From Leptolyngbya boryana PCC 6306 (lineage in GTDB: Bacteria; Cyanobacteriota; Cyanobacteriia; Leptolyngbyales; Leptolyngbyaceae): a stretch of DNA of 64,000 nucleotides. The translations under genes were made by a program, and so were the position numbers. Shown here one piece after another: positions 10,406 to 60,244 of this stretch. The stretch is taken from contig NZ_KB731324.1 in assembly GCF_000353285.1 (NCBI RefSeq), positions 3,428,577 through 3,492,576 of the forward strand, in the 5' to 3' direction. The notes under the pieces are model-generated. The model saw only the letters and a program-made list of their open reading frames with translations. It was not told the DNA's origin and did no database searches. Position 1 is the stretch's first letter, and each line of letters starts with the position of its first letter.

Positions 10406-12982
10406 TTATTCGTTCTCTTCTTCGCTACCAAACAACACAGGTAGACTCACATGGGTAATCCGTTCTGTTTTCGCCAATTTGACAACTCGATCGCCGCGTT
10501 CATCTTTTGCTCTCAGTTCCAAACGATCGACATCGATCCGCGCTAAGTGATTTTCATTTGTCAATAAGAACACTAATGCTTGAGGCAGCACCGCCACGAT
10601 TCCGGCGACTAAATCGGTCTTGTTGTTGAAATGGAACGATTGAGTTCCAAGCTCTCCAGTACTGGCGCGACGCATCGCTGAGACTTCCATATGTTTTGCA
10701 TAGCCCTGCTCGGAAATCATCAGGAAGGTATCATCTTCGTTCGCGATCGCCCATCCAACAATCCGCTCTTTCTTGCCCACGCGCATTCCGGTTTGACCTT
10801 GAGAAGTCCGGCTTGCTACTGGAACCTGCAAATCATTGACTTCAAAGCGTAAGACTCGCCCACTTGAAGTTGCTAACATCACCTGCTCACCCACTTGAAC
10901 TGGGTTAGCAGCTAAGAGTTGATCCCCTTCTTTGAGTTTCAGTGCAGTTAAGCCTCGCCCGGTAATATCCGCAAATTCAGATAGCGGTAGACGTTTAATC
11001 TTGCCTTGCTCGGTTAGAAGTAGAACAAATTGATCGTCTAGAACTTCTGGCAGCATAAAGGTTGCCGCGATCGCATCGGGTTCTGCTTGCGCCGCAGGAG
11101 GTAACAACGTCACAAGGGGCGAACCTTTTGCTTTATTGTTATTCGCTTGCGGAATGTCTCGAACTTTCAACGTAAAGGCTTTTCCATTGCGAGTAAAGAC
11201 AACCAGCGTTTTACCTGTGGTTGTAAAGTCAGTTTGAGTTGCAAAATCATCTCCGTCTTCTAAGTCTTTGGTGACGGTATCATCATTGCGAGTTTTGCTT
11301 AGGCGATCGTAGGTTTTCGGGGTCATGCGCCGCACATAGCCCCGCTGAGTTACTTCTACAACGGTATCTTGCTCTTCTTCCTCAAACTCAAAGGCTAAAT
11401 TGACCGATTTTGCAGCAGTCGTCGCTTCATCTTTATCTTTGACTTCCATCGCTGCAACTTCAGTGGAAGAAAGGATTTTAGTGCGACGATCGTCTCCGTA
11501 TTTCTTCTTCAACGCCCGCAGATCTTTCTTCAATGCTTTGAGCAATTCTTTACGATCGCTAAGCAGCTTGTGCAACTCATCCATTTTTGCCAGCAGCTCA
11601 TCATACTCGGTTTGTAAGCTTTGCCGCTCCATTCCGGTGAGCCGACGTAGTGGCATCGACAGAATGGCATCTGCTTGTCGATCGCTCAAGTCTAAGCGCT
11701 CTTGCAGTTGAATCTTCGCAGTTCCTCCATCGGGTGCATTTCTTAAAATATCAATTACATCATCCAAATTCGCTAGCGCTTTTAAGCGACCTTCGACCAC
11801 ATGAAGCTGGCTATCGGCTTGATCGTATTCATGACGATATTGCCGCGTTAAAGTAGTTTCGCGGAAGTCTAAGAACGCTTGCAGCATTTGTCGGAGGGAC
11901 ATTTGCTTCGGTTGTCCGTTCTCAAGCGCGAGTAAAATTACTCCGAAATTGTTCTGTAAGGGGGTTTGACGATACAGGAAATTGAGAATTTTTTGAGGAT
12001 TCGCATCGCGACGTAGTTCAATCACGACGCGAATACCTTCGCGATCGCTTTCATCGCGCAGATCGCCAATCCCTTCGATTTTGCCAGTGTTGACTAATTC
12101 GGCAATTTTCTCAATCAAGCCAGCTTTGTTGACCTGATACGGTAATTCGGTAATGACGATCGCACTTCTACGATGCTTCCCTCGTCCGGTTTGAATTTCT
12201 TCTAAGTTTGCAATTCCCCGAATCGGAACACTGCCCCGTCCGGTTAAGTAAGCTTCTCGAATTCCATTCGTATCAATGATTTCCCCACCTGTCGGAAAAT
12301 CGGGTCCTGGAATCAACTTGAGCAGTTCTTCATCTGAAAGCGTGGGTCGATCGATTAAGGCAATCAATCCTTCGACCACTTCACCCATATTATGCGGCGG
12401 AATATTCGTTGCCATTCCAACTGCAATTCCTGAACTCCCATTCAGCAGCAGGATCGGGAGTTGGGCAGGTAAAACGGTTGGCTCTTGCTGTGAATTATCA
12501 AAGTTCCCAATAAAATCGACGGTTGATTCGCCAATTTCTGTGAGTAAGGCTTCGTTCCCGATCGCGGAGAGTCGCGTTTCGGTATATCGCATTGCCGCAG
12601 GCGGATCGTTATCAACGGAGCCGAAGTTTCCGTGCCCCCCAAGTAGCGGATAGCGGCTGGAAAAATCTTGAACTAATCGAACTAACGCATCATAAACAGC
12701 TTGGTCGCCATGCGGGTGATATTTACCGAGTACGTCCCCGACGACACGGGCGCATTTCCGATAAGGGCGATCGGGAGTTAATCCCAATTCATGCATTGCG
12801 TATAAAATACGACGATGGACAGGTTTTAAGCCATCGCGCACATCGGGTAGTGCTCGCCCAACGATGACGCTCATGGCATATTCCAAATAAGACTGCTGCA
12901 TTTCTGTATGTAACGCAGTCGGGATGACTTGTCCACTTGGAAGAATGTTTAACTGTTCTGATTGAGTTCGCGTCCGCGCCAT
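10406..12982 (-). CDS. gyrA: DNA gyrase subunit A
   Basis: An 858-aa type IIA topoisomerase A subunit. The breakage-reunion domain has the catalytic tyrosine at Y133 in [10 protein letters not shown], with [13 protein letters not shown] at 87-98 upstream. A coiled-coil segment follows (about 370-480), then a six-bladed beta-pinwheel (about 520-840) with repeated GYVRR/GKIKRLP/GRVLRFE blade motifs, and an acidic tail. It introduces negative supercoils with GyrB, which is not in this window. Instead of Ser at the E. coli S83 position it has Gln (Q94). I see no exact QRRGGKG GyrA box, and cyanobacteria often have a second GyrA/ParC paralogue, so ParC is a minor alternative; the close match to cyanobacterial GyrA N-termini favours GyrA. 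Confidence 0.88.
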
Positions 12983-13140
12983 GAGCCTACTTGTCCTGCT
13001 GAATTTTACAAACTATATGCGGAAATGATCGGTTCGGTGATTTAATTTGATCGCTGTCCTGAAAATACTAATACAGTTGCGTTATCTTACAATCGTTTTA
13101 TTGTGCCGTATCCAGCATCTTGTCGTAAGAGGAATTTGAT

Positions 13141-13539
13141 ATGCAAACCGTCCTAATTGTGGAGGATGATCTGACAAATGCTAGAGTCTTTTCCAAAATT
13201 CTGACAAAACGCGGAGGTCTAGCGGTCAAACATACTGAAAATGTAGATGAAGTGATTGAGATTGCCCAGTCCGGCGAGGCAGACATTATCCTCATGGATG
13301 TCTCTCTCTCTCGTAGTATGTACCAAGGCAAAGCAATGAATGGAATTCAGCTAACTCAGTTGCTCAAGGCAGATGAGAAGACTGCAAGCTTGCCGATTAT
13401 CTTGGTCACCGCTCACGCCATGGAAGGCGATCGCGAAAATTTCCTCAAACAAAGTGGTGCAGATGGCTATATCTCGAAGCCAGTCGTCGATCATCAAGCC
13501 TTTGTCGATCAGATTATGGAACTGCTGCCGGGGGCGTAG
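13141..13539 (+). CDS. single-domain response regulator (DivK/CheY-like)
   Basis: A 132-aa receiver domain with no output domain. Acidic pocket E8/D9/D10 (IVEDD), phospho-acceptor D53 in IILMDVSLS, switch Thr in LVTAHAMEGD and Lys in GYISKPV are all present. An extended loop follows D53 (SLSRSMYQGKAMNG). A good ribosome site AGAGGA precedes the ATG by 8 nt. It stands alone between gyrA (divergent) and the ATPase pair, about 240 bp upstream of the latter. It probably relays phosphate to another protein; no partner kinase is adjacent. Confidence 0.9.
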   Translation: MQTVLIVEDDLTNARVFSKILTKRGGLAVKHTENVDEVIEIAQSGEADIILMDVSLSRSMYQGKAMNGIQLTQLLKADEKTASLPIILVTAHAMEGDRENFLKQSGADGYISKPVVDHQAFVDQIMELLPGA

Positions 13540-13779
13540 CGGCATAACATTTGCCTCAAAGGTTTGCATACATTAGTACTATTTTAGCGCGATTTTGGCA
13601 AGGATTTGGCTGAAAATTCTTGAAAGTGGAGCGACATAAACTAATCTCAGCCGATTGGGATCTGTTGTAAATGCAAAAACAGATCTGCCTTGGCATTTTT
13701 CGACAGAACGTGGAAAATACGGAGGGATGTCATGTAATGCATGATTTGATATCCGTAAATCCATAGCCCGGACACGATT

Positions 13780-14874
13780 ATGTCTTCTCAGACGAATTGC
13801 CCTTTTCTTGCAGATAGAATGCTTACCGAGCGTAAGTTCTTTGTAGGAAGGCGAGATCAGATTCGATTTATTCTGTCGCGGATGACGAATGACCAGCCAA
13901 CAAGTGTCAATGTGGTTGGAGATCGGCGTGTCGGAAAATCCTCACTGCTCTATCACATTTATCAAAGTTATGAAGAGCAGGTAACAGCATACGGGCGACG
14001 AGCAGAAGAATTTGTCGTTGTCTATCTATCACTTCGAGATGGAAACTGTCGGAAACCAGAAGACTTTTATCAGGCGGTAGCTGATCAACTGCTTCAGCGG
14101 CAGAGAGTTTTATCAAACCCGATTTTGGCTCAACCGTTACAGCAGAGCCAATTGAATGGAAGCAAGTTTTTTCGGGCAATGGATGCTTGGAAGCAAGCGA
14201 AAGTGCTGCCTGTCGTGTGTTTGGATAATTTTGAGGAACTGCTTGATCCTGAAAGTCAGTTTGATGATGGATTTTATGACAACTTGAGGGCGCTTCAGGG
14301 ACGGAGTGAGATCATGCTGATTATTGCATCTCGGCGCAAGTTGCGGGAATACAAGCAGAAGGGGCGTACTTCAGAATTTTTTAATGTGTCACAGACAGAA
14401 GTGTTGCAGGATCTTTCTGAGTCAGAAGCGCAGGATCTGGTGCGATTGCCGGATACACAAAATCCTGCATTGAGTGAGGAGCGACAGCAATTAGCTCTCA
14501 AGTGGGCAGACCGACATCCCTATCTATTGCAGTTAGCAGCCCTGTATTTGTGGGAAGCACGACAGTTTGACAAATCAAATGAGTGGGCGCAACGGCGATT
14601 TGAAGAGGACGCGCGAGGAGTGCCGAGGCGGGTGAATCCAGCGAGAATGGTGTTTATGGGAATCGGGCGACTGGGGCAATGGGGACAGCAGTTAGGCGAT
14701 ACAGCCGATGACTGGGGAAATTTTTTGAAGGGAATGGTGACGCTCGTGCTGTTGGGTCTGGCATTAACGGGGGTTGTGAAGTGGAGCAATTTTGGCAGCT
14801 TTATGCAGGATTTTGCAGGAGAGATTTTGAAGAATATGCAGACGCAGCCAGATCAAAAGGGTGAAGGGAAGTAG
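13780..14874 (+). CDS. P-loop ATPase (archaeal ATPase/AAA-like) with C-terminal membrane helix
   Basis: A 364-aa NTPase. Walker A is GDRRVGKSS (47-55), preceded by the FVGRRDQI box seen in this ATPase family, and Walker B is VVCLDNFEEL (about 146-155). An arginine-rich sensor follows (IIASRRKLREY), and the HPYLLQLAALYLW motif (about 246-258) is typical of archaeal-ATPase/AAA_35-like proteins. A single strong membrane helix lies near residues 318-334, so the ATPase is probably anchored with the short C-tail across the membrane. It ends 6 bp before a second, larger membrane ATPase of related type, so the two are likely co-transcribed and may form one complex. Function unknown. Confidence 0.78.
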   Translation: MSSQTNCPFLADRMLTERKFFVGRRDQIRFILSRMTNDQPTSVNVVGDRRVGKSSLLYHIYQSYEEQVTAYGRRAEEFVVVYLSLRDGNCRKPEDFYQAVADQLLQRQRVLSNPILAQPLQQSQLNGSKFFRAMDAWKQAKVLPVVCLDNFEELLDPESQFDDGFYDNLRALQGRSEIMLIIASRRKLREYKQKGRTSEFFNVSQTEVLQDLSESEAQDLVRLPDTQNPALSEERQQLALKWADRHPYLLQLAALYLWEARQFDKSNEWAQRRFEEDARGVPRRVNPARMVFMGIGRLGQWGQQLGDTADDWGNFLKGMVTLVLLGLALTGVVKWSNFGSFMQDFAGEILKNMQTQPDQKGEGK

Positions 14875-14880
14875 AAGATA

Positions 14881-17337
14881 ATGAATCAGCTTTGGCAGTA
14901 TGTTCGAGAGTGCATTCAACTCTTTCACTGGGTTTATTTTCAGCCGTTTACTTTTGTCAGAAAGCTGCGAGAAATCCATCCTGATTTAGAGCCGACTACA
15001 AATCCCTTTTCGTTAAGAGCGGAGTTTGTAGAGTTCCCAAACTTGAAAAGATATGCTGAGCAGATCGGTTGGCTGACCATGCTCACGCCCATCCTCGCTG
15101 CACTCGTAGTCGCTCCGATTTATTCATTCTTCTCAGACACTCCCTTTGATTTTTTGCGAAGTGGTCAGGTTTTACTAGGGTGGATTGTAGGTGTGTGGAT
15201 TGCTAAAGGCGAGTTTCCATCCCTTCAGAAATGGCTCAATTATCTTTTTTACGGATTTGCCATATTCGTAGTTGCGTATGGAATTAGTGAACAATTTAAG
15301 CTCGAAATTTTCACAGCACTTTTGAATGCTCTTCCAGTTTTAAAGCAAGGAGTCAGCGCGATCGCGCCTTTCTACTTGTTCGCGTTTGGTATCGTATTTG
15401 GTGTCGCTTTTGGTGTCGTATTTGGTGTCGCTTTTGGTATCATGGTTGGTGTCGCATTTGGTGTCGCGTTTGGTGTCGCGTTTGGTGTCGCGTTTGGTGT
15501 CGCTAGTGGTATCGTGGTTGGTGTCGCTAGTGGTATCGTGGTTGGTGTCGCTAGTGGTATCGTGGTTGGTGTCACGTTTGGTGTCGCTAGTGGTGTCACG
15601 TTCGGTGTCGCTAGTGGTGTCACGTTCGGTGTCGCTAGTGGTATCGTGGTTGGTGTCGCGTGGATCTTGGGTGCAATCCGAGCCTATTTCTGGATACCAG
15701 AATTCGTCTGGATGTTGGGATTGGGGCTTTTTGCTCGTAATGCCCATGTGAGTGCTTCAACCTTACGGTTCTTACCACCGTACTTTGATCAATTGATTTA
15801 CTTTCCGCTCCCTTTTCTGTCCGAACTCATTGTCGAAGCCCATCGGACAAACCCTGTTGCGGCTGAGTCTACGATCGACTATCTCATCAACTCCACAACA
15901 CAACAAAAAGCAGCAATCAATGCAATGCAGGGGATTGCGTTAGATACTCTCAGTCGATGCAAATATGCCACTGATATTACGCAAGCTTCTCTCATACTCG
16001 ACTGGATTCCTCGGAATGAAGAAGACTTTGGGGCTGTTTTGCTCCAATTGATTGATCTGAGCCAAAGTATTCGCACTGCTTACGATGGAACAACTCCCTA
16101 CCGTAAACTTGAATTGCTCGATCAGCCAATCGCCGAACTCACGAAACTTCAGAAAAAACTCGCAACTCAAGAATTTGCGAAAGACGCAACTTTATACGGT
16201 TCTATCGTTGAGCAATGGCTGACGATTCTTCAAGATAGCCGCATCGCCTTTGCAGAAGCTGCCTCTCAATCTCCTGAAATCCCTGATCGGTATCTTGCAG
16301 GCAATGCACTCGATCCCCTGAGCGCGAAAGGGCGGTTTAAAGGTCGTCAAGAGCTATTTCGTGAGATTGAAAACATTTCTCTCTCTGCCCAACCACCCGT
16401 TCTCCTACTCTACGGCAGACGGCGTACCGGCAAAACTTCCACACTGAACTATCTCCCAGAAAAAGTCAGTGGCGATCTGATCCCACTCTTTGTAGACTTC
16501 CAAGGCGCTTCCAGTTTCCAAACTTTTGAGAGTATTGCTGAATGGATCGCAGAGGAAATTCAGAAAAGCGCTCGGCTCTCTCGAAACGTCATTCTCCCCG
16601 CAATTGATGCCAAAGAGATCGCCCGTGATCCCTTTGCTGCACTTTTGCAATGGATGGCAAAAATCGAACGGCTTGTCCCCTCGAAACGTTTTCTGCTCTG
16701 TCTAGATGAGTTTGAGCGACTCGAAGAAGCGATCGCAGCAAATAATAACAATCGAGCACCGCTCAACTTCCTTCGCTACGTCATGCAAAATCGTCGCCAG
16801 TGGGTGCTTCTATTTAGTGGTTCTCATCGTCTCAGCGAACTGAATCCCTACTGGAGCGATTGCTTAATCAGCACCCAAACTCTGCCTCTAACTTATCTTT
16901 CTCCAACCGAAACTCGCGAACTGATTCAACAGCCTGTTCCCGATTTTCCAGATATCTACGAACTCGAAGCTGTCGATGCCATTAGTAATCTCACCCACGG
17001 GCAGCCCTATCTGGTTCAATTAACGTGTTCGCAAGTTGTCGATCGTCTGAATCAAGAAATTCTCGCTGACCAGCCTCATCGCAAAGCGACTGCAAAGGAT
17101 GTACAGCTTATCATTCCAAAGGTTCTAGAACGAGGTGAAGGTTATTTCAATGAATTTTGGCAAACTCAAACGCCAGAACAACAAGCCATTCTGAAATTAA
17201 TCGTTCAAGGGGAGCACATTACTCAACCGACTCATATACTAGACAAGTTCATTCAAGCAGAGATTTTACATAAACAAGCTGAACAGTATATTTTTCAAGT
17301 TCCGCTAATTCATCACTATATAAACTCTCTGGGTTAG
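14881..17337 (+). CDS. membrane protein with 23-step GxxxG repeat and C-terminal AAA-like ATPase
   Basis: An 818-aa protein. Residues about 60-165 hold several hydrophobic segments. Residues 168-260 are a tetrapeptide repeat [FVS]G[VI][AVTM] repeated 23 times, with glycine at every fourth position. A helical linker follows (about 300-470), then an ATPase with Walker A GRRRTGKTS (512-520), Walker B FLLCLDEFERL (604-614, catalytic E610), the sensor LFSGSHRLSEL and the GQPYLVQL motif found in its upstream neighbour. The C-terminal EQQAILKLIVQGE segment resembles the winged-helix tail of this family. ATG is preceded by GAAG. It is probably a membrane-anchored NTPase; whether its role is signalling, defence or transport cannot be told. 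Confidence 0.78.
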   Translation: MNQLWQYVRECIQLFHWVYFQPFTFVRKLREIHPDLEPTTNPFSLRAEFVEFPNLKRYAEQIGWLTMLTPILAALVVAPIYSFFSDTPFDFLRSGQVLLGWIVGVWIAKGEFPSLQKWLNYLFYGFAIFVVAYGISEQFKLEIFTALLNALPVLKQGVSAIAPFYLFAFGIVFGVAFGVVFGVAFGIMVGVAFGVAFGVAFGVAFGVASGIVVGVASGIVVGVASGIVVGVTFGVASGVTFGVASGVTFGVASGIVVGVAWILGAIRAYFWIPEFVWMLGLGLFARNAHVSASTLRFLPPYFDQLIYFPLPFLSELIVEAHRTNPVAAESTIDYLINSTTQQKAAINAMQGIALDTLSRCKYATDITQASLILDWIPRNEEDFGAVLLQLIDLSQSIRTAYDGTTPYRKLELLDQPIAELTKLQKKLATQEFAKDATLYGSIVEQWLTILQDSRIAFAEAASQSPEIPDRYLAGNALDPLSAKGRFKGRQELFREIENISLSAQPPVLLLYGRRRTGKTSTLNYLPEKVSGDLIPLFVDFQGASSFQTFESIAEWIAEEIQKSARLSRNVILPAIDAKEIARDPFAALLQWMAKIERLVPSKRFLLCLDEFERLEEAIAANNNNRAPLNFLRYVMQNRRQWVLLFSGSHRLSELNPYWSDCLISTQTLPLTYLSPTETRELIQQPVPDFPDIYELEAVDAISNLTHGQPYLVQLTCSQVVDRLNQEILADQPHRKATAKDVQLIIPKVLERGEGYFNEFWQTQTPEQQAILKLIVQGEHITQPTHILDKFIQAEILHKQAEQYIFQVPLIHHYINSLG
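15382..15660 (+). repeat. 12-bp tandem repeat (TTTGGTGTCGCG-like), 23 units, inside a gene
   Basis: A coding minisatellite of 279 bp in the 818-aa ATPase gene. Each 12-bp unit encodes FGVA or a variant (SGIV, VGVA, VGVT). Longer 24-bp subunits repeat in blocks: an SGIV-VGVA block three times, then SGVT-FGVA twice, which suggests recent unequal exchange. The unit length is a multiple of three, so changes in copy number keep the reading frame. Confidence 0.92.
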
Positions 17338-17379
17338 CTGAGGAGAACTTGCAGGAGATATTCGATTCTCACACAAGAT

Positions 17380-18684
17380 CTACAATTGATTTTTGAGTTT
17401 GAGTTGCAAATAGCGATCGACTAATTCATTAGTGATTTGATTCGCAGGCGCATCTAAAACTAAAACGCCTCGCTGCTTCAACGTACTAAATGCCATCTGC
17501 CTCTGAGCGATTAAATCCAATGCCACTGCCCTTTCATAGGTTGCAGGCAGATCTTCAGTAACGGTATGAGCTTGTTGATCGACTTGTGGGTCGCGCAAGG
17601 TGACACAGAAGGGTAAGTATCTTGGCGTTAATCGTCCCAATGCAGCAAGCAATTCCGAAGACGCAGTATTGTCAACAATATCGGTAATGACGACAACTAA
17701 AGCACGTCGGGTTTGTTGATTGACGAGCGTTGTCACTGCACCGAGATAATCTGGTTCTAGCATCTCTGGTTGAATCGGAGTTAACCGCTCGATCAGATGA
17801 TTGAGATGAGCTTGCCCGCGTTCGGGTGGAATCCAGGTTTGAACTTGACGATCGAATACTCCGACTCCGACTCGATCTCCCCGATGCAATCCTGCCAGAG
17901 CCAAAGCTAAAGTTGCATTCAGTCCCCAGTCAAATCGCGTCAATCCCTTTACTTGCGAAGTCATTAACCGACCGCGATCGAGCAAAATAATCAACGTTTG
18001 CTCTTGTTCTGGTTCCAACACTCGAACTAAAGGTTGTCCGCGTCTCGCTGTTGCTTTCCAATCAATGAAGCGTGGATCATCTCCAATCCCATATTCTCGA
18101 AGCTCTGAAAATTCGGTTCCAATTCCCATTCTTCGAGCGCGACGCATTGAGCCAGACGATTCTAGCGTTAGGCGAATTGAGAGCGATCGCAATCCCATCA
18201 AATCTGGATAGACAGCGACTTTCTGTTCTTGCGGAATCTGCCAATTGTGCCAAGCTAAACGCCAAGGGCTTAACTGCCGAACTTGAATGTCTTTCCAAAT
18301 GTACTCGCCTCTCTCACTGGGATGAACCGTGTAAGAAAGCTGTTGCGAAGTATTTGGAGGTAACTTTGCCGCTAAAGGCATCGAAGAGATGCCAAATGAG
18401 ATCGGATATTTGTCATAAATCCGCACCTCTGCCGTTGTCTTGCCTGCTTCAACCGAGAGACTGACTAAGTTGTCTCGCCCGATCGATAAGCGCGATGCGA
18501 CCTGCCGTTCGATTTTGACTCGATGCGGCTTGACGCGCCAGCCATCCCAAATCGTTAAAGCCAAAACAATCAAGTCAAACAGCAACATTCCCAAAATCGC
18601 CAAAGCGGGATTAAAGAAGAATGCAATGACCGCGATCGCACCACCCAGCAATAACAATCCGTAAGTTCGACGTGAAGGCAGCAT
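17380..18684 (-). CDS. DUF58 domain protein
   Basis: A 434-aa protein starting with two membrane helices (about 8-45), then an extracytoplasmic-looking beta domain and the DUF58 signature region around residues 190-215 (EFSELREYGIGDDPRFIDWKA split by short gaps), followed by a von Willebrand A-like fold (LIILLDRGRLM, VVVITDIVDN). It lies 3 bp downstream of a MoxR ATPase gene, the standard MoxR-DUF58 pair. In other bacteria such pairs act as chaperone-like systems in metal insertion or envelope stress; the target here is unknown. Convergent with the ATPase pair. Confidence 0.88.
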   Translation of the reverse strand: MLPSRRTYGLLLLGGAIAVIAFFFNPALAILGMLLFDLIVLALTIWDGWRVKPHRVKIERQVASRLSIGRDNLVSLSVEAGKTTAEVRIYDKYPISFGISSMPLAAKLPPNTSQQLSYTVHPSERGEYIWKDIQVRQLSPWRLAWHNWQIPQEQKVAVYPDLMGLRSLSIRLTLESSGSMRRARRMGIGTEFSELREYGIGDDPRFIDWKATARRGQPLVRVLEPEQEQTLIILLDRGRLMTSQVKGLTRFDWGLNATLALALAGLHRGDRVGVGVFDRQVQTWIPPERGQAHLNHLIERLTPIQPEMLEPDYLGAVTTLVNQQTRRALVVVITDIVDNTASSELLAALGRLTPRYLPFCVTLRDPQVDQQAHTVTEDLPATYERAVALDLIAQRQMAFSTLKQRGVLVLDAPANQITNELVDRYLQLKLKNQL

Positions 18685-18687
18685 AAG

Positions 18688-19638
18688 TTAACGAGGCACA
18701 GCAACTTGATTGAGGACAGCATTGATCACCGCTTCGACTCCAATCCCGTCTAACTGGGCTTCAGGACGCAGAATCAGACGATGACGCAATAGAGGAGATG
18801 CAACAGCTTTAATGTCATCCGGTGTGACATAGCTGCGCCCAGACAGCCAAGCTTGAGCCTTACTGACATTGAGCCATGCGACTGCCGATCGCGGCGATGC
18901 TCCTAAAACTAAGTCTGGATGTTGCCGAGTCTTTTGAACCACTGCGAGTAAATAATCCAGAACACTCTCTTCGACTTTGAGCGATCGAATTTCCCGTCTC
19001 GCCTGCAAAATTTGCTCGACAGATGCAACGGGCTGAATATTATCTAAATCCAATCGCTTACCCTGAAAACCTGCTTGATGATTGAGCAGCATTTTCTTCT
19101 CGGCAACCGGATCTGGATAGACCGCCATTAACTTGAATAAAAAGCGATCGAGTTGTGCCTCTGGCAGCGGATACGTGCCTTCAAATTCCAGCGAGTTCTG
19201 AGTCGCAATTACCCAGAAGAAATCAGGCAACGGTAAACTCTCACCGTCTAAGGTGACTTGCTGTTCTTCCATTGCTTCGAGCAATGCTGATTGAGTCTTG
19301 GGCGGGGTTCGATTGATTTCATCCGCGAGAAGAATCTCAGTAAAAACGGGTCCTTTTTTCAGCAAAAAGCTGCGAGTATTGAGGTCAAAAATATTCGTAC
19401 CGAGAATGTCAGAAGGCAGAATATCAGGCGTAAGTTGCACACGTCGAAACTGCGATCGCACTAACTTTGCCATCACTTTGACAGTTAATGTTTTTCCAGT
19501 TCCAGGCACGCCTTCTAAGATCACATGACCGCCTGAAAGCAACGCAACCAAAAGCTGCTGGATGAGGGCACTTTGACCAACCACAATCTGATCAAGGCTC
19601 TGTCTCAGTTTAGAAAATGTTGTTTGCAGGTCGGACAT
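18688..19638 (-). CDS. MoxR-family AAA+ ATPase
   Basis: A 316-aa AAA+ protein. Walker A GVPGTGKT (about 43-50), Walker B LLADEINR (about 105-112), sensor 1 ATQNSLEFEGTYPLPEAQLDRF (split around 150-171) and the arginine/sensor 2 region GASPRSAVAW (about 244-253) are all in place. MoxR ATPases act as chaperones on VWA-domain partners; the DUF58 gene 3 bp downstream is the likely partner. Confidence 0.93.
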   Translation of the reverse strand: MSDLQTTFSKLRQSLDQIVVGQSALIQQLLVALLSGGHVILEGVPGTGKTLTVKVMAKLVRSQFRRVQLTPDILPSDILGTNIFDLNTRSFLLKKGPVFTEILLADEINRTPPKTQSALLEAMEEQQVTLDGESLPLPDFFWVIATQNSLEFEGTYPLPEAQLDRFLFKLMAVYPDPVAEKKMLLNHQAGFQGKRLDLDNIQPVASVEQILQARREIRSLKVEESVLDYLLAVVQKTRQHPDLVLGASPRSAVAWLNVSKAQAWLSGRSYVTPDDIKAVASPLLRHRLILRPEAQLDGIGVEAVINAVLNQVAVPR

Positions 19639-21804: not shown

Positions 21805-22443
21805 TCAACCAACAGAACTAACTTCCACCTCATTAGGCTCTTCCAGCACAGAGTTCTCTGAAACTTTCTTCACGGTCTCTGGCGCAACAGATTCCTCGAT
21901 GATAGAGTCTTCTGAAACCTTCTCTACGGTCTCTGCCGCAACAGATTCCTCGGGTTTCGGCTTCTTCTGAATCAACTGCCCAATATCTTGATTAATCTGA
22001 AAATACTGATGGAACTTATCTGTCACCTGTACTAACGACGATCGACCATCTGAATTTTTCCGTTTCCGCACAAATCCCAATTCCACCAGTTCAGGAATAT
22101 GTTGATAGACTCCCGATCCCCGAATTTCAACTAATTCTGTCTGGCTGATCGGGCCTTTCAGGGCAATCACCGCCAAAGTCCTCAGCGCCCCAACTCCCAA
22201 ATCTGCTGGAATCAGCGCATTAATCAAATTCTGATACGTTTCGCGAAGTTGCAAACTGTACCCTGAATCTGTTTCAGCGATTTCCAGTGCCCCGTCGCGG
22301 TGAGCATAATCCGACATCAACTCCATCAATCCCTCTTCGGTGGTTTGCCGATCGAATCCTGCTAATTCAGCGAGTTGCGCGATCGTCATCGGTTGCGCTT
22401 TGAGATAAAGAATTGCTTCAAGCGTAGTGGTCAGACGAGTCAT
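21805..22443 (-). CDS. scpB: segregation and condensation protein B
   Basis: A 212-aa protein. Residues 1-160 form the two winged-helix domains of ScpB, with signatures LEAILYLKAQPMTIAQLA near the start and ALKGPISQTELVEIRG (about 113-128). It partners with ScpA and SMC in chromosome compaction; neither is in the window. The C-terminal tail (about 165-212) is acidic and holds two copies of an EESVAxETVxKVSExS unit, beyond the usual family length. The palindromic element begins 26 bp past its stop. Confidence 0.9.
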   Translation of the reverse strand: MTRLTTTLEAILYLKAQPMTIAQLAELAGFDRQTTEEGLMELMSDYAHRDGALEIAETDSGYSLQLRETYQNLINALIPADLGVGALRTLAVIALKGPISQTELVEIRGSGVYQHIPELVELGFVRKRKNSDGRSSLVQVTDKFHQYFQINQDIGQLIQKKPKPEESVAAETVEKVSEDSIIEESVAPETVKKVSENSVLEEPNEVEVSSVG

Positions 22444-59206: not shown

Positions 59207-60244
59207 TCAAGGCGTGGGCGGAAAAGTTGCAGACCCTAAATCACCCGCCGCACCCATGACTTTGGCTTCGCCATTGTTGTACGACAGCGAAACTCCTCCC
59301 GCGTTTCCCGTATTGATCTCGACAGATTTACCACTCCAAGTTCTCTGGGTTCCTTTTGTCAGTGTGCCTTCGTAAACAGAAGTTCCATCAACGAGGACTT
59401 CTACCCAGCTTTCCTCAGTGATATTCATTTTGACATTGACAGCCCCTGGAGACGGTGAAGCAGGAGTCGGGCTACTTGGGGTAGAAGCGACTGGAGCAGA
59501 ACTGCCGGGTGTAGGCGCTTGAGAGGGTTGTACAGTCGGAGAAGTTGCAGCACTAGGATTCGATCGCTCTGGCTGACGATTGACAAACGTTGAAGCGAGA
59601 ACGCCGATTACGCCTAATCCGATTGCAGCCGCTAAAGCAATCAGTGGCAGACGAGCAGGTGGCTCACTGGTGCTGATGCGAGGAGGCGTAGGAACGGAGT
59701 CGCGGACGGCAGTAGGCTCGAGTTTTTGAGCAGGCTGAGGATCACGAATGGCAGCAGGTTCAGAAGCTTTGGGTGTGGGAAGTGGAGTCGGAGCTTCGCT
59801 ATGCACGACCTGAGGAGGCTCAGCAGCCCTGGGGATGGAAGGTTCAGGTGCTTTGGGAACAGCAGGCTCAGATGCTTTAGGGAGAGCAGGCTCAGGCGCT
59901 TTGGGGATAGAAGATTTGAGAGCAGTTGGCTTCGGGGTTTGAGGCTCGATCGTATTCGAGATCAAAGAAGCCGTCGCTGGAGCAGGCAGGGGGGAAAGAT
60001 CAACAGTGAACTCTTTCGACAGTGCGATGCCGTCAAGCCCAATCGCATCCGCAAAACGCCGAATGAAGCCTTGAATGAATACAGGCTCGGGAAGCCGATC
60101 GAGATTTGCATCTTCGAGCGCAATCAGTAATCGTTGCGGAATGTAGGTTTTCGCGGCAATTTCTTCGAGCGACATCGATTTTTTCTGACGCTCCTGACTG
60201 AGCCGCGTTGCGATCGCTTTAAGTTGTTCTTTTTGTGCCGACAT
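59207..60244 (-). CDS. RodZ-like membrane protein with HTH and DUF4115
   Basis: A 345-aa protein; the ATG giving MSAQKEQLK is chosen, with AGGA 9 nt upstream (MGMSAQ is also possible; the frame extends further upstream). Residues 1-80 are a cytoplasmic HTH_25 domain (EEIAAKTYIPQRLLIALED). A long proline-rich part with PKA(P/S)EPA(L/V) repeats follows, then one membrane helix (about 212-232, LIALAAAIGLGVIGVLA), a Ser/Pro linker and a C-terminal DUF4115 domain (VNVKMNITEESWVEVLVDG). RodZ links MreB to cell shape. Confidence 0.88.
   Translation of the reverse strand: MSAQKEQLKAIATRLSQERQKKSMSLEEIAAKTYIPQRLLIALEDANLDRLPEPVFIQGFIRRFADAIGLDGIALSKEFTVDLSPLPAPATASLISNTIEPQTPKPTALKSSIPKAPEPALPKASEPAVPKAPEPSIPRAAEPPQVVHSEAPTPLPTPKASEPAAIRDPQPAQKLEPTAVRDSVPTPPRISTSEPPARLPLIALAAAIGLGVIGVLASTFVNRQPERSNPSAATSPTVQPSQAPTPGSSAPVASTPSSPTPASPSPGAVNVKMNITEESWVEVLVDGTSVYEGTLTKGTQRTWSGKSVEINTGNAGGVSLSYNNGEAKVMGAAGDLGSATFPPTP

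Follow-up and report, generated by a model that had tools for sequence, protein, structure and literature searches.

A hypervariable glycine-zipper array in a predicted membrane segment of a two-gene, STAND-type NTPase locus of cyanobacteria

Conflict systems built on STAND NTPases, among them those of the nSTAND1 and NACHT types, were described by Kaur et al. 2020 (PMC7159879), and the antiphage STAND systems Avs and bNACHT are described in PMC10907252, as far as the excerpts of both papers go. The excerpts of the latter also present DGR-diversified STAND antigen sensors, in which a hypervariable part lies within a STAND-linked protein. Glycine zippers are described in toxins: in its excerpted text, PMC5380434 presents CdzC and CdzD as glycine-zipper toxins, of which CdzC aggregates, with a zipper contained in a 24-25-aa span, and PMC12744356, likewise in its excerpted text, states that EsxX depolarises and TelE destabilises membranes. 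Among the matches listed in a full-text literature search, no title or abstract start dealt with such arrays in STAND NTPases, nor was the two-gene STAND system itself encountered there, and a search with peptide words of the array described here gave no match.

The window, i.e. the whole stretch of 64,000 nucleotides of Leptolyngbya boryana PCC 6306 that was analysed, carries a long GxxxG array in the second of two STAND/AAA+ NTPase genes that form an operon (13780-17337) and are separated by 6 nt. The features concerned are the following:

13780-14874, + strand: upstream partner, a 364-aa nSTAND1-type P-loop NTPase (nSTAND1 match; similar ORF in 79 of 97 family members)
14881-17337, + strand: array-bearing 818-aa NTPase gene, whose product has an N-terminal half of membrane type (AAA_22, family alignments, AlphaFold2)
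14881-15285, + strand: conserved N-terminal part, with an LFHWVYFQPF helix and hydrophobic helices at residues 53-85, 91-109 and 113-135 (AlphaFold2)
15334-15669, + strand: predicted variable membrane segment, residues 152-263, helical in AlphaFold2 at low confidence
15388-15654, + strand: GxxxG array, residues 170-258, 23 glycines at period 4, made of 12-bp units and 24-bp super-units
16336-17337, + strand: C-terminal STAND/AAA+ NTPase, with Walker A GRRRTGKTS at 512-520 and Walker B LCLDE at 606-610

In the array, glycine occupies residues 170, 174 and so on to 258, i.e. 23 glycines and 22 GxxxG steps, in units that are mostly G-[VI]-[AVT]-[FSV]; between the glycines stand chiefly V, I, A and F, and in places S and T. 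The sequence-only reading had announced 23 steps over residues 168-260; its exact four-residue spacing stands, whereas its limits and count of steps have to be adjusted. When the whole protein was shuffled 20,000 times, at most 6 glycines followed each other at period 4; as many shuffles of residues 170-258 alone brought at most 8 glycines into register. At the DNA level, Tandem Repeats Finder delimits the repeat at 15380-15658, with 11.6 copies of period 24, 87% matches and 0% indels, which agrees with the 12-bp units and 24-bp super-units proposed earlier. The longest exact internal repeat of the array reaches 56 bp at an offset of 24, and the codon GGT specifies all 23 array glycines versus 10 of the 28 glycines elsewhere in the gene. 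This exact repeat and this uniform codon usage suggest that the array DNA was recently homogenised. The encoded segment contains no D, E, K, R or H between K155 and R267 (residues 156-266, 111 residues), and the array has a mean Kyte-Doolittle value of 2.0; both run counter to a soluble region, and insertion of the array segment into the membrane is likely from its hydropathy. The array thus shows the GxxxGxxxG pattern with hydrophobic x that characterises glycine-zipper toxins, with 23 glycines in register; its carrier is an 818-aa NTPase and not a small secreted or LXG-type effector.

Antisense frames across the array are open (15340-15747 and 15372-15623, both on the - strand); a stop-free 12-bp repeat should give just this, and these frames were discarded as genes. 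Read on the opposite strand, the 12-bp repeat gives Asp/Thr/Lys or Thr/Pro/Ala repeats, both in window frames and at the locus L241, where a similar repeat seems to encode a Pro/Thr-rich linker; one DNA repeat may therefore underlie both GVAx arrays and TPxA linkers, according to how it is read. Other tandem repeats of the window include 21850-21952 (period 54) and 59816-59913 (period 24). An RNA element at the locus was rejected, since no Rfam match was obtained at the gathering score in window positions 12900-18700. A DGR target was likewise rejected for this locus, since the 7 RVT_1 matches of the genome all lie on two other contigs and none on contig C1, which holds the window.

Both products carry NTPase signatures. 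The partner matches the nSTAND1 domain of Pfam at 34.7 bits (cut-off 27.1) and displays, by eye, one C-terminal hydrophobic segment. The 818-aa protein matches AAA_22 at 28.2 bits, just over the cut-off of 27, and nSTAND1 at 17.0, under 27.1; the label of ATPase that it had been given holds for its C-terminal part. In this part, G512, R514, R515, G517, K518, D609 and E610 are invariant in 12 aligned relatives, and G512, R514, G517, K518, D609 and E610 also in 46. In the N-terminal part, Q61 is invariant in the alignment of 46 relatives, with Y19, F20, P22, P34 and Y58 nearly so. The Pfam matches and AlphaFold2 elements of the 818-aa protein include no C-terminal repeat or sensor domain, and Pfam and NCBIfam up to E 1 revealed no LXG or bacteriocin domain in it. 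The layout of Avs and bNACHT, with effector, STAND domain and variable C-terminal sensor in one protein, is absent, the STAND domain being itself C-terminal. A known defence family was rejected for the window pair, for which PADLOC gave no convincing match (best E 0.0016 and 0.00044). Directly downstream, on the - strand (17380-19638), lie genes named by eye as encoding DUF58-like and MoxR-like ATPases.

The family was assembled from 121 ORFs at 150 bits or more, 102 of which passed 400 bits and 700 aa and lay clear of locus ends; 97 distinct full-length proteins were left after identical ones had been dropped. Its distribution is patchy. In the seven genomes of the same genus that were searched, no ortholog turned up; what they have are distant ATPases of about 660-716 aa. 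A 12-member profile matched 96 of 388 class-mates at E <= 1e-20; 64 (row count) reach 1e-100, the remaining matches being mostly to the ATPase part alone. Named genomes provided 63 loci, mostly, by their titles, from Nostoc, Calothrix and other filamentous cyanobacteria; beyond these, there are single loci titled Magnetococcales, Ardenticatenia and Anaerolineales, two titled Desulfobulbaceae and a weak one titled Flavobacteriales. Judged by equal scores and lengths, the proteins of the class-mates G075, G148 and G183 are the same as those of named Limnothrix, Cylindrospermum and Leptolyngbya records, which agrees with a cyanobacterial window.

In 79 of the 97 members, window included, the gene is preceded on its own strand, at -150 to 500 nt, by a partner-type STAND ORF; among the 18 for which this rule gives no partner, two sit at contig ends, another has a TIR-like fusion, and in one more the partner is 804 nt away. 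Four upstream partners scanned with Pfam gave one TIR_2 (6.5e-14), one Trypsin_2 (1.1e-15) and two with NTPase domains only; more TIR-like, trypsin-like and helix-turn-helix-like N-termini were recognised on partners by eye only. In Mastigocoleus testarum BC008 (L143:3515-11250), the two-gene system occurs in two tandem copies. The Leptolyngbya genome itself harbours a paralogous pair 1.7 Mb away (contig C1, about 5.133-5.138 Mb; L006:2068-6867):

L006:4039-6867: paralog of the array gene, 942 aa, with broken glycine-zipper runs, the longest of 12 steps
L006:2068-3234: its partner, a TIR-STAND protein, 804 nt upstream (TIR_2 6.5e-14; PADLOC ThsB 4.6e-57)

Comparison of close relatives indicates that the predicted membrane segment is the most variable part of the gene, both its length and its sequence shifting while the rest stays more alike. 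In 19 close pairs, non-overlapping in that neither member had been used before and not strictly independent, the median DNA identity is 0.872 for the N part, 0.764 for the variable segment (columns aligned with residues 104-266, aligned positions only) and 0.912 for the C part. The segment is below the C part in 18 of these pairs (Wilcoxon p 1.9e-5) and below the N part in 16 (p 1.3e-4). The exception is L056/L057 (segment 0.898 versus C part 0.868); L199/L206 was kept, its C part being at 0.776 by global alignment and at 0.906 by BLAST over a shorter stretch. Segment length differs in 18 of the 19 pairs, in four of them by just 1-4 aa, differences that may be partly due to where the alignment sets the ends.

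The clearest case is L174/L201, two genes that are 99.7-99.9% identical outside the segment, with a single mismatch in each end part, namely the first 353 nt and the last 1,657 nt, and that carry 21 versus 9 steps. The DNA flanking these genes is 97.5% and 99.3% identical. Their middle parts measure 477 versus 309 nt, and the stretch that precedes the array is only 50-58% identical in 60-nt windows. Because the middle differs in this way between near-identical flanks, the segment appears to have been replaced and not merely expanded; it looks like the product of replacement by recombination plus turnover of units, beyond slippage alone. Copy number is thus far from constant among close relatives, as the sequence-only reading had anticipated; its idea of in-frame copy-number change is borne out by the differences in length and is incomplete, since in L174/L201 the whole segment was exchanged.

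Across the 97 members, the longest GxxxG run varies between 0 and 31 steps, with at least 6 steps in 42 members, at least 10 in 24 and at most 2 in 32. As these 32 have almost no run, the array is not needed for the function of the family. The 32 members with arrays of at least 8 steps share one consensus, G-V-A-[F/V/G/L/S]: in their 471 units, where slot 1 is G by definition of a run, slot 2 is V in 423 and slot 3 is A in 338, and slot 4 is F in 112, V in 96, G in 83, L in 83 and S in 41. The lag-4 identity reaches significance (p <= 0.01, 300 shuffles) in 76 of 95 members, L065 (TIR-like fused) and L188 (which holds an X) having been left out of this set and of that used for segment lengths; it is so in 31 of 31 members with long runs, 30 of 32 with middle ones and 15 of 32 with short ones (at most 2 steps). 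The glycine slot is filled by Ser in L123 and by Ala in L185, with the four-residue period kept and significant. A 96-row tree built from the C parts only implies a minimum of 19 switches between long and short runs, with long runs defined as at least 8 steps and short ones as at most 3, rows with 4-7 steps uncounted and L065 left out; it is a quick tree with long-branch warnings, some long branches meeting. Segment lengths look spread continuously from 60 to 303 aa, and the idea of lengths quantised in pairs of transmembrane helices was dropped.

Comparable arrays are found in another class of NTPases. Six NACHT NTPases (Pfam) of relatives, L069-L071 and L073-L075, bear GL[IV]x-type tetrad arrays, with runs of 12-13 steps between charged stretches in L070, L071 and L074 and of 6-7 steps in the other three; L072 gave no Pfam match. 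These arrays would fit transmembrane hairpins with about 6 units per crossing. A search with the array only matched 18 of 194 genomes. In the ten array-only loci inspected, L226 and L235 are NACHT-like by eye and have GL[IV][FG] tetrads, as the six do, and L222, L223, L227, L229, L234, L236, L238 and L241 were set aside by eye as other repeats, some of them antisense readings. In genome G182, a 410-aa frame (L229:617-1846) has a GLQQ tetrad repeat near its end, i.e. a soluble-looking four-residue glycine repeat.

The AlphaFold2 model of the 818-aa protein has a mean pLDDT of 78.6, with a confident C-terminal and a fairly confident N-terminal part; helices run through the array at pLDDT 33-47, and any structural claim for the array from this model was dropped at such values. 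Foldseek matched it weakly, at E 7e-5 to 6e-4 and a query-based TM-score of ~0.2, to ORC, RuvB, the NRC3 resistosome and entry 8bob. On the Hessa scale (approximate scale values), 21-residue sums over the array lie between -0.8 and +5.1, uncorrected, i.e. marginally inserting, and the best stretches average -0.12 in array-bearing versus -0.88 in array-less members, so that arrays are no better. The tightly packed membrane core or oligomer that had been suggested for the array is not shown by the model or by the insertion scale.

From these data, the array gene may code for the membrane component of an NLR-like conflict system made of two STAND genes, with the zipper module acting as an oligomerising, membrane-perforating effector, a proposal that we make tentatively and would stop short of calling probable. 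The hypervariable glycine-zipper module would perhaps be a membrane-permeabilising effector. A sensor or adaptor role would fall to the upstream NTPase, the N-terminus of which varies from relative to relative, and the downstream one would hold a multi-helix membrane domain with a small-residue tetrad zipper (Gly, sometimes Ser or Ala) as its core. NTP-driven assembly would gather several membrane domains, the zippers of which would pack into an oligomeric helical bundle; on triggering, this bundle would depolarise or perforate the cell's own membrane, as glycine-zipper toxins do. The zipper DNA is a 12-bp minisatellite that stays in frame, and its variability, apparently driven by unit gain and loss and by segment-swapping recombination, may perhaps be selected for.

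Several lines of evidence point towards such an effector. They comprise the partner found in 79 of 97 members, the TIR_2 and Trypsin_2 domains on two of the four scanned partners, and the STAND/AAA+ motifs, Pfam matches and fold of the C part; the consensus common to 32 arrays and the lag-4 period; the lower conservation of the segment in 18 of 19 pairs and the at least 19 long/short changes; the tetrad arrays of six NACHT NTPases, which in L070, L071 and L074 are set between charged stretches like transmembrane hairpins; and the glycine-zipper proteins stated to depolarise or destabilise membranes in the excerpted texts of PMC12744356 and PMC5380434. Counted against the effector are the low pLDDT of the array, its marginal Hessa values, the lack of a good PADLOC family match, the near-equality of nonsynonymous and synonymous changes in each slot, the 32 members with runs of at most 2 steps, and the 18 members for which the upstream rule gives no partner.

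The chief alternative is that of a length-tolerant filler: the segment would be a generic hydrophobic anchor, for which any small-residue helix would do, and an unchecked 12-bp minisatellite would generate variability devoid of function. We regard it as a serious possibility, if a rather doubtful one. The remainder of the protein is preserved in relatives that lack the array, and one of them, L137, is modelled with helices at 94-111, 116-134, 146-166, 168-187 and 206-238 (pLDDT about 40-80), the last three in the same place as the array of the window protein. The continuous spread of segment lengths also suits a filler, as does a per-slot test of selection, in which no clear excess emerged. 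Slot 4 of the 7 youngest arrays, which include the near-identical L174 and L201, underwent 17 nonsynonymous versus 9 synonymous changes, but over 32 arrays the nonsynonymous versus synonymous changes per site are 18/18 for slot 2, 36/33 for slot 3 and 51/47 for slot 4 (with the site numbers of young arrays, slot-1 replacements being excluded by the choice of runs), and positive selection was dropped for this reason. However, a filler should drift to any hydrophobic sequence, whereas V-A is retained at slots 2-3 across separate clades and the four-residue periodicity persists in 76 of 95 members; moreover, replacement of a whole segment between almost untouched flanks is not slippage.

Alternatively, the membrane segment could be a sensor or target face that detects membrane damage or binds membrane proteins of invaders, its variability reflecting an arms race. 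Hypervariability within an otherwise conserved gene of conflict type would be expected of such a face, Pfam finds no C-terminal sensor domain in the 818-aa protein, and STAND proteins usually have a variable sensor according to the excerpts of PMC10907252. This reading is nevertheless improbable: a zipper of low complexity that faces lipid has few specific contacts to offer, and the recurrence of one consensus in separate clades fits packing better than ligand recognition. Finally, an artefact, in which collapsed or mis-assembled repeats would give apparent differences in length, is very hard to believe, and was already disfavoured: although many relatives are draft or MAG assemblies and G238, the source of L201, is in 160 contigs, G208, the source of L174, is a one-contig genome, the window genome is in 5 contigs, and repeat mis-assembly could not produce the differences of L174 and L201 in their non-repetitive pre-array stretch.

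Polytopic membrane domains are usually expected to accommodate little change in length, since this would invert their topology. Here, a segment of 60-303 residues, probably located in the membrane, is resized and replaced within conserved flanks. If functional, it would be the membrane equivalent of the variable sensors that immune NTPases carry. To return to the effector proposal, its broadest form, unlikely as we judge it, is that NLR-like systems hold a membrane-embedded variable region, in which the zipper, through minisatellite turnover and allelic segment exchange, would re-draw pore size, threshold or specificity between strains and leave the NTPase untouched. By analogy, such a region would resemble the variable region of an antigen receptor or of MHC, but within the lipid bilayer. 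The family also provides a natural insertion/deletion series, from 0 to 31 steps, for studying the insertion, packing and oligomerisation of repeated GxxxG steps.

Compared with known systems, the partner of the paralogous system has a TIR that matches Thoeris ThsB (PADLOC) but, unlike ThsB, combines it with a STAND domain in one protein and has a predicted membrane NTPase as its companion. Like the DGR-diversified STAND antigen sensors of PMC10907252, as its excerpts present them, the locus has a hypervariable part in a STAND-linked protein, whereas its variation consists of length changes and segment replacement. The array has GxxxG repeats with hydrophobic residues between the glycines, as do CdzC/CdzD, EsxX and TelE; unlike these secreted toxins, as the excerpted sources describe them, it extends to up to 31 steps, varies in length and lies inside an NTPase. 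With the STAND conflict systems of PMC7159879 and PMC10907252, as their excerpts present them, the locus shares a STAND-type P-loop NTPase, TIR or trypsin-like domains on some partners, occurrence in filamentous cyanobacteria and a patchy distribution. It differs from what these excerpts describe in that one operon encodes two NTPases, one of them with a predicted multi-helix membrane domain, and in that, with no C-terminal sensor recognised, the membrane segment is the most variable part.
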